Source: Candidatus Methylomirabilis sp. (GTDB lineage Bacteria; DYJV01). Taken from it: a stretch of DNA of 7,942 nt. The notes under the pieces are model-generated. The model saw only the letters and a list, made by a program, of their open reading frames with translations, made no database searches and was not told where the DNA came from. This document shows positions 31 to 7,942 of this stretch, piece after piece. Within the stretch, counting starts at the first letter, position 1. Each line of letters starts with the position of its first letter. The DNA lies in NCBI GenBank assembly GCA_020722945.1, contig DYJV01000088.1, positions 1-7,942 on the forward strand, in the 5' to 3' direction. A program made the position numbers and the translations under genes.

Positions 31-93
31 CCTTCAGCACTTCAGCCTTACGCCTGATACGCAGGTGTATCCTCACTTCGTTAGTTGAAATGA
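31..93 (-). repeat. dispersed intergenic repeat, copy 1
   Basis: Read on the minus strand, this begins TCATTT, continues with GAAGTGAGGA and a CAGG block, and ends AGGCTGAAGTGCTGAA. The same blocks occur in the same order on the plus strand at 7881-7942, so the two are diverged copies in opposite orientation. The 16-base block AGGCTGAAGTGCTGAA is identical in both. The pattern resembles the widespread GTCATTCTGAGCGAAGCGAGGAATCTC type of intergenic repeat found in many bacteria. That family link is from memory of the motif and was not searched. This copy carries an insertion that forms a hairpin (50-68) absent from the other copy. Confidence 0.7.
50..68. other. small hairpin inside the repeat
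   Basis: ACGCCTG (50-56) pairs with CAGGTGT (62-68) around the five-base loop ATACG. This gives seven pairs, one of them G-T. No T-run follows on either strand, so it is not a standard intrinsic terminator, although it lies about 70 bases beyond the last gene of the minus-strand operon. Confidence 0.4.
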
Positions 94-5773: not shown

Positions 5774-6628
5774 TTAAAGTGAGAAGATTATGTTGTTTAT
5801 ATTATGACTGTTAAGGTCATTAAGTTTCATATACTTCCCACCCATCAGTCTTGCAAGCTCCCAAGAGTAACCAAAAGCAAGATGGTCAGTCTCTGTGTCG
5901 AGGATTAAAGTTTTCACACCAAGTTTCTTTATGTATAACCCATAAATCTCAGATTGGTCAAGACAATTTTTCCCATTTAGCGAAACATTTCCCCTACCGT
6001 CTGATACAAGAACCATAATCATATGAGATAGTGGATTTTTGACTCTCTCCTGTTTTAATAGTTGAAATGCCATCTCAAAACCGTGTGCAAGTGGAGTTTT
6101 CCCACCTGTTTCAAGATTTTGAAGCTTCTTCTTTGCATTGTAAACACTATTTGTAAAAGGCAATAGTAGTTTAGCTTTTGAGGCTCTAAAAGTTATCATC
6201 CCAACTCTATCCCTTTTCTGGTATGCATCTATCAAAAGGGAGTAAATAAGAGTTTTTACATGGAACATCTGCTTTTCAACACCCATAGATCCACTACTGT
6301 CAACTACGAATAAAATTGCTGAAGATTTTTTAACTTCTCTTATATTCTCTTTGATGCAGTCTAATCTAATCTTATTTATACTTTTATGTTTTAAAAGAGA
6401 GAATTTGATAGTTGGAACTATTGCTATATCTGTATATTTACCTTGAGGTTCTCTGTATCCGATCACTCTTCCTGAACGGTCAGGCGATACCCCTTTTACC
6501 CTTTTACCTGAATTGGATGTTGATGAATTTTTCCCTGAAAAATTTAATTTTTTTACTTTAAAAGGATCACCTATTCCGTAAATACTACCTTTTATTTCAC
6601 TCTGCTCAGCTATACCCCTATTTTCTAC
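5774..6628 (-). CDS. chlD: VWA (ChlD/BchD/CobT-like) part of frameshifted chelatase gene
   Basis: This frame encodes 284 residues from the shift point to the stop: a charged Ser/Asn/Lys linker, then a von Willebrand A domain of the magnesium/cobalt-chelatase D type. A GTG at 6466 would give a 230-residue form. In that numbering the metal-ion-dependent adhesion site is complete: DSSGS (56-60), T124 in GGKTPLAHG and D156 in [19 protein letters not shown] is also typical of the family. Family-like sequence extends upstream of 6466 (DPF and SGR blocks), so the GTG is probably not the true start. There is no ATG, GTG or TTG between the in-frame stop at 6638-6640 and 6466. The likely product is therefore a fusion with the upstream AAA+ frame through a -1 shift at the A10 run, about 643 residues in all, the size of known ChlI-ChlD fusion cobaltochelatase subunits. 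A disrupted gene or a sequencing error in the A-run is the alternative. Confidence 0.88.
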
Positions 6629-6637
6629 TTTTTTTTT
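6625..6637 (-). promoter_or_regulatory. putative -1 frameshift site, A_AAA_AAG then UAG
   Basis: On the minus strand the AAA+ frame ends GAA AAA AAA AAG TAG, with ten consecutive A (6629-6638). Two overlapping in-frame slippery heptamers are present: A_AAA_AAA (6637-6631) and A_AAA_AAG (6634-6628), the latter being the E. coli dnaX signal. The stop codon follows directly. A one-base backward slip continues as GTA GAA AAT and enters the VWA frame. I found no Shine-Dalgarno-like stimulator 10-15 bases upstream and no strong stem-loop just downstream. Ten A is also long enough for RNA polymerase slippage, and adding one A gives the same fusion. Confidence 0.72.
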
Positions 6638-7704
6638 TCAGAAAATTTAAGATCGGAAATATCATTTACAGTATCTGATTTTGTTTTAATTTTTTGGATG
6701 GAGGATTCAATTATATCTTGCTCTACATGAAGCTCATCAAAGGGATTTTTCCTCATCCTATGAGGTAGCACCATACGAGCAGCTTCCCTTATCTCGCTCT
6801 CTGAAACTTCCCGTTTCCCATGGTATGCAGCAATAGCTTTTGCTGTTTTCTCCATGATTATATCTGCTCTATGACCGTCAACATTAAGATCAATTGATAT
6901 CTGTGCTATAATTCGGAGTATCTGCTCAGGAATTACGATTTTATGTAAAATTTTCTTTGCTGAAATTATATCTTTTTGTATTTTTGTATCAAACTTACTC
7001 CACTTCTTGATAAATTTATCAGGGTTATTTTCAAAATCTTTTCTTAATTTGACAACCTCAATCCTCAAATCTATATCCTTTATACCCTTTATCTCTACAC
7101 ATAGCCCAAATCTATCAAGTAATTGTGGTCTCAGATCACCCTCTTCAGGGTTCATAGTCCCTATCAGTATAAATTTACTTGGATGAGAGAATGATATCCC
7201 ATCTCTTTCAATATAATTTCTACCCATTGCAGCAGCATCAAGTATTATATCAACTATATGGTCACTAAGTAGATTAACTTCATCAATGTAAAGTATTGCC
7301 CTATTTGCTTCGCCAAGTATCCCCTGTTCAAAAGATTTCTCCCCTTTACTCAGTATCTTCTCAATATTTATTGTGCCCACTACCCGATCTTCAGTAGAAC
7401 CTACGGGGAGGTTAACGACCTTCATCTTTTTATACTCTGTGGATATCTGACCATTGATGCTTAATTCATTACAATAATCGCAGTAAGTTGAAGGATCATC
7501 AGGGTCGCAATTAAAAATGCAACCTTTTACAACCTTTATATCATGTAAAAGAGCAGCTAATCCCCTTACTGCAGTTGATTTGGCTGTCCCTTTCTCACCA
7601 CGAATAAGAACACCACCTATTGAAGGATCTATAACATTAAGTATTAAAGCCTTTTTCATAATGTCTTGCCCAACAATAGCGGAAAATGGATAGATATATC
7701 TCAT
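6625..7704 (-). CDS. chlI: AAA+ ATPase subunit of cobalt/magnesium chelatase, ChlI/BchI-like
   Basis: The zero-frame product is a 359-residue AAA+ ATPase that would power metal insertion into a tetrapyrrole, with a VWA partner and a CobN/BchH-type large subunit. Motifs, numbered from ATG 7704: FSAIVGQ near the N-terminus, Walker [10 protein letters not shown] (36-44), tetracysteine C62-x3-C66-x8-C75-x2-C78, Walker B LYIDEVN (138-144), [16 protein letters not shown] (184-199) with arginine finger R198, sensor-2 R279 in GHRAD, and [12 protein letters not shown]. The tetracysteine and general sequence match the ChlI-ChlD fusion 'cobaltochelatase' family better than photosynthetic BchI. I preferred ATG 7704 to GTG 7722 because family members begin close to YPFSAIVG and GAGAG lies seven bases before the ATG. 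The frame ends GAA AAA AAA AAG TAG, a slippery run abutting the stop. No cobN or bchH gene is in the window. Confidence 0.92.
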
Positions 7705-7716: not shown

Positions 7717-7750
7717 ACACACTATTTAATGATAACTTTTTCAAGAGATT

Positions 7751-7880: not shown

Positions 7881-7942
7881 TCATTTGGACGAACAAAGTG
7901 AGGAGTAATCTCAGGGATAGGCTGAAGTGCTGAAAGTTGAAG
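7881..7942 (+). repeat. dispersed intergenic repeat, copy 2
   Basis: On the plus strand this begins TCATTT, continues AAAGTGAGGAGTAATCTCAGGG, and ends AGGCTGAAGTGCTGAA, with TTGAAG at the window edge. It pairs with the copy at 31-93 in opposite orientation and shares the 16-base block exactly. The segment TGTCATTTGGACGAACAAAG resembles the common GTCATTCTGAGCGAAG intergenic repeats. It may continue past the window. It lies about 100 bases upstream of the predicted promoter. The rest of the 7787-7880 stretch is AT-rich and I see no gene in it. Confidence 0.7.

Follow-up and report, generated by a model that had tools for sequence, protein, structure and literature searches.

A probable fs-chlD gene in Candidatus Methylomirabilis, with a conserved ten-adenine run between its ChlI-like and von Willebrand A frames

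A cluster of 23 chelatase genes from six genera (Pseudomonas, Burkholderia, Delftia, Herpetosiphon, Methanocaldococcus and Methanococcus) has been described in which a -1 shift at an A-rich site lies between a ChlI-like AAA+ part and a von Willebrand A (VWA) part (PMC3711429, PMC9227772), and in reporter cassettes frameshifting amounted to 63, 40 and 10% for 11, 9 and 7 A, respectively (PMC3711429). These genes are named fs-chlD and yield the small and the medium chelatase subunit from one gene (PMC9227772), while the shift site of chlD has been given as A_AAA_AAR, with strong potential for structure (PMC5009743); both of these studies treat the shift as ribosomal. Some genomes harbor fs-chlD yet lack the B12 or chlorophyll pathway or the large subunit (PMC9227772). 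Two systems that concern other proteins are close in mechanism. In the recoding of dnaX (two-ORF dnaX genes with A10, and slippage on A9 in Thermus; PMC3711429, PMC5009743), the products differ in their C-terminal domain, and in the two-ORF type the longer one requires a slip; A runs longer than 7 are cited for transcriptional realignment, and the A10 dnaX genes are explained in this way (PMC3711429). In tssM1 of Citrobacter rodentium, an A11 run near a stop slips in transcription without a helper structure to give the long form, as was shown there from RT-PCR products (PMC4256274).

Here we describe a locus of this kind in a 7,942-nucleotide stretch of Candidatus Methylomirabilis sp. (contig DYJV01000088.1), referred to below as the window. 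A preliminary description of this DNA had stated that such genes are known from other bacteria, which PMC3711429 and PMC9227772 bear out. The gene is encoded on the minus strand and has the following features (coordinates are window positions):

6625-7704, minus strand: zero-frame ORF of 359 amino acids, predicted ChlI/BchI-like AAA+ ATPase (Pfam AAA_5, AAA_lid_2 and Mg_chelatase), with its start ATG at 7704
6638-6640, minus strand: TGA stop that closes the -1 frame immediately before the run and extends into it (read from the sequence)
6629-6638, minus strand: A10 slippery run (T10 on the plus strand), containing A_AAA_AAA and A_AAA_AAG in the zero frame
6625-6627, minus strand: zero-frame TAG stop directly 3' of the heptamer (read from the sequence)
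5774-6637, minus strand: -1 frame with a linker and a VWA domain (MIDAS motif DSSGSM; VWA_2, 1.3e-14 in the fusion), the C-terminal part of a predicted 643-amino-acid ChlD-like product
6464-6466, minus strand: GTG preceded by AGGAAGA, the first ATG/GTG/TTG of the VWA frame and the sole candidate for a separate start; not conserved in the relative

Around the junction the zero frame reads ...TTT TCT GAA AAA AAA AAG TAG, with A_AAA_AAA one codon before A_AAA_AAG and with the G that follows the run at 6628. The -1 frame meets its TGA at 6640-6638, opens only inside the A10 run and then continues for ~284 codons without a stop. Given this TGA before the run and the TAG after it, the change of frame is confined to the A10 run itself. 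When one base is re-read at the end of the run, an uninterrupted chain of 643 amino acids results, ending at a stop near 5774. Re-reading of the sequence thus upheld what had been claimed for this junction, namely an AAA+ frame that ends with the heptamer in its zero frame and a VWA frame lying exactly at -1 and open from the slip point, and translation reproduced both of the lengths given, 359 amino acids for a ChlI-only protein and 643 for the fusion. An alternative in-frame start, GTG at 7722, would extend the AAA+ ORF to 365 amino acids. In a profile search this ORF matched TIGR02030 at 1.7e-125, under the cut-off of that model.

The 643-amino-acid fusion, in which Pfam AAA_5, AAA_lid_2 and VWA_2 are found, matches TIGR02442, a one-piece putative cobaltochelatase with the same order of domains, over nearly its full length (residues 5-628 against profile positions 1-640 of 641, E 4.5e-215), though its score of 715.9 bits stays below the model cut-off of 779.45. 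It further differs from many members of that family in being split by a -1 shift where they are uninterrupted. In a survey of the family, 48 of 386 genomes gave a match with an E-value of 1e-30 or lower, many of them as single long frames, and we inspected the DNA at four loci that looked split (L097, L098, L099 and L100). Three have a second ORF at -1, behind A10 in L097, A9 in L098 and A7 in L099, the first two being from genomes of one family; in the fourth, L100, which is high in GC, the AAA+ part ends with A9, but the downstream frame did not resolve to a clean -1, and this locus was not counted as a -1 split. In the three loci that have the motif LPHRMR, the slip site falls 44-46 residues past its start. 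No second ChlI was found in the genome of the window, which is slightly incomplete and in which the sole match is the present locus.

The locus therefore shares with fs-chlD a -1 shift at an A-rich site between ChlI-like AAA+ and VWA parts, a short and a long predicted product, and a separate small-subunit gene that was not found, an absence that is typical of fs-chlD genomes though not universal. It differs in belonging to a little-sampled phylum, from which two genomes were compared, in having no predicted stimulatory structure, which fs-chlD genes usually have but do not require, in the stop that directly follows the heptamer (in the window species only), and in that the genome's sole CobN homologue looks exported. 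With dnaX it has in common a run in the range of A9-A10 and products that would differ in their C-terminal domain, and with tssM1 a stretch of A close to a stop and the lack of a helper structure.

Conservation was assessed in one relative, a metagenome-assembled genome of the same phylum and order and of another family and genus; both genomes are fragmented. The relative carries the locus on JALVYZ010000059.1 (L039; contig C59 of genome G001) and reads AGT GAA AAA AAA AAC there, with exactly ten A (L039:5076-5085) at the homologous SEKK codons and the same -1 offset. The AAA+ parts of the two genomes are 71-72% identical, and the same genes follow downstream in both, encoding a regulator/HD-type protein, a SpoIIE-type phosphatase and AcpS (families assigned by eye from the ORFs). 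Past the run, 26 of 71 linker positions are identical, the base 3' of the run is G in the window species and C in the relative, and the zero-frame stop lies 1 nt after the run in the former and 22 nt after it in the latter. Run length, offset and -1 frame are thus kept within a drifting linker. The preliminary description had proposed to ask of aligned orthologues whether the A run, the offset and the abutting stop are conserved; the first two are, the stop is not. Besides the locus itself, the only other sign of a ChlI in the relative's slightly incomplete genome was one weak, partial match of 26% identity.

Differences between the two genomes at codon positions 1, 2 and 3 amount to 0.32, 0.22 and 0.54 in the -1 part, to 0.31, 0.14 and 0.51 in its VWA portion alone, and to 0.25, 0.15 and 0.56 in the AAA+ part. 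The resemblance of the -1 part to the AAA+ part in this respect indicates that the -1 frame, too, is under coding constraint.

A run of ten A is by itself unsurprising in such AT-rich DNA, since dinucleotide shuffles yield such runs (~0.8 A10 runs are expected in the window, where the A10 at 6638-6629 is the sole A/T run of at least 8, and ~4.9 in the relative's locus), and the run alone is no proof. A pattern search of the whole 2.51 Mb genome located 15 places with A10 or longer, and inspection of the flanking frames showed that the chelatase run alone joins two long frames. Several of the others lie within ordinary ORFs whose frame does not change, and the rest are in or beside shorter frames; a genome-wide habit of slippage on A10 was rejected, as these other places join no two long frames. 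One of them, near base 1458 of L047 (G000:C44), lies in an ORF that by eye resembles asparagine synthase and keeps its frame, so that a run of this kind does not in itself amount to programmed recoding. Should A10 cause slippage of RNA polymerase in this organism, some of the asparagine-synthase-like product would be truncated. The decisive point for judging the chelatase locus to be more than chance is the conservation of A10 and of the -1 offset in the relative.

Taken with the coding character of the -1 frame and the lack of a usable start for it in the relative, this conservation makes it very probable that the locus is a working fs-chlD gene, that is, a single gene encoding both AAA+ subunits of a chelatase motor. 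Normal decoding would stop at the TAG after A10 and give a ChlI/CobS-like ATPase of 359 amino acids, and slippage on the run would give a ChlD/CobT-like AAA+-linker-VWA protein of 643, either by a -1 slip of the ribosome on A_AAA_AAA/A_AAA_AAG or by addition of one A by RNA polymerase. The two products would share the AAA+ domain and may co-assemble as I and D subunits, in which case the rate of slippage would set the I:D ratio. Such a gene would add a little-sampled phylum to the known spread of fs-chlD, and between the two genomes compared it is the A run itself that was kept, and not the 3' base, the stop or a structure.

A homopolymer is an error-prone place, and many members of the family are one-piece fusions, so the split might be an error of sequencing or assembly, or the mark of a decayed gene, with the true gene in one frame. 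This is scarcely credible: the relative, which belongs to another genus and was assembled separately, has the identical A10 and offset, both flanks of the run are under coding constraint, and comparable A-run splits occur in further genomes. It was on the conservation in the relative that sequencing error was rejected. Nor is it at all likely that two separate proteins are made, the second by reinitiation or from its own Shine-Dalgarno sequence at GTG 6466. The Shine-Dalgarno-like AGGAAGA does precede this codon, and the 230-amino-acid product starting there would contain the whole VWA domain; in the relative, however, the first ATG/GTG/TTG of the VWA frame falls after the DSSGSM motif of the MIDAS, which makes a complete separate VWA protein impossible there. 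The check for separate starts that had been proposed beforehand thus favors the fusion, and the lack of a usable start in the relative is the main reason for which a separate VWA gene was rejected. The stretch from the run to the GTG is moreover open in both genomes, with the motifs G-(D/E)-P-F-K and S-G-K-R kept, and the alignment of the fusion to the one-piece family runs from one end to the other. Phase variation, in which replication slippage would change the length of A10 between cells and switch the long product on and off, can appeal to A10 being a slip site at the DNA level too (discussed in PMC3711429), but we give it next to no probability, as the length is exactly ten in two genera and the enzyme would be intracellular and not a surface protein.

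The level at which a working fs-chlD gene would slip here is a matter on which the evidence is divided. No downstream stimulatory fold exceeded shuffled sequences in either genome (z-scores of -0.76 to +1.71), and a stem-loop stimulator was rejected on this ground. No significant downstream fold was found at the four other inspected A-run loci of the chlD type either; the earlier remark that no stem-loop is evident is correct, but this feature does not distinguish the present locus. Slippage by RNA polymerase, which overlaps with our preferred explanation, would yield the same products, since transcripts with A11 (or A8 or A14) put the VWA part in frame. The run of ten A exceeds the length of 7 beyond which runs are cited for this mechanism in PMC3711429, where A10 dnaX is explained likewise; the A11 run of PMC4256274 slips in transcription with no helper structure; and what the two genomes share is the run alone, not the 3' base (G vs C), the distance to the stop or a fold. 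Against this, A_AAA_AAA, which both genomes have in the zero frame, is a ribosomal slip site as well, and PMC9227772 and PMC5009743 treat the shifting of chlD as ribosomal. We consider transcriptional slippage to have close to an even chance of being the route, and its earlier mention as an equal alternative is upheld.

We also looked for a large subunit with which the predicted pair might work. The sole CobN homologue of the genome (L043:12175-16050, contig C104 of G000; PF02514, 2.9e-285) has 1291 amino acids from its likely ATG and carries hydrophobic segments at residues 4-22 and 1267-1285. The region upstream encodes a TonB-dependent receptor; among NCBIfam models a B12 receptor model fits this protein best, though far below the cut-off. 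Downstream is an ExbB/TolQ-type protein followed by ORFs that by eye are ExbD- and TonB-like. The copy in the relative, cut by a contig end, likewise has a hydrophobic N-terminal segment and, by eye, a TonB-receptor-like ORF nearby. In Bacteroides, the CobN-related protein HmuS, which takes iron out of haem, likewise has membrane segments at both ends and is encoded in an operon linked to TonB (PMC12583661); the two were compared in topology and neighborhood and found alike in these. The 643-amino-acid fusion shows no membrane segment in hydropathy analysis. Because the only large-subunit homologue thus looks exported and doubly membrane-anchored, in a TonB uptake cluster and with an HmuS-like topology, the recoded ChlI/ChlD pair might not act together with a cytoplasmic CobN to insert cobalt in this lineage and might instead form a free-standing AAA+/VWA machine or have a different partner, with its ratio set by slippage on A10; we put this forward tentatively, as a possibility that we rather doubt. 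The locus sharpens the question, raised by PMC9227772, of the role that ChlI/ChlD pairs play in cells where a fitting large subunit is missing. A CobN homologue was not found in the genomes of three of the four other A-run chlD-type loci. G139, G276 and G304 have a split or A-run chlD-type locus, no CobN/ChlH homologue having been found in them, and resemble the 'stage 1' genomes of PMC9227772.

Several smaller observations concern the same genomes. CbiC and CbiK, the latter being another type of cobalt chelatase, are present in both. The CbiK-type chelatase of the window species (L064:1474-2472, minus strand; G000:C136) begins with a signal-peptide-like N-terminus (MKKFYSLFFLFFVVSLLIPSFVFGEE) and adjoins a TonB-dependent-receptor-like ORF, and that of the relative (L065) is without such an N-terminus. 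Between the relative's TonB receptor and its CobN homologue there is an ORF (L061:4307-6283, minus strand; G001:C199) that by eye seems to combine a corrinoid-binding protein of the periplasm with a domain resembling CbiZ. Finally, related sequence in opposite orientation stands at both contig ends (window positions 33-80, GGCTGAAGTGCTGAA, and 7893-7935, AGTGAGGA), and the first of these end motifs turns up again close to where contig C24 (L044) ends, so the assembly may have been interrupted by a dispersed repeat.
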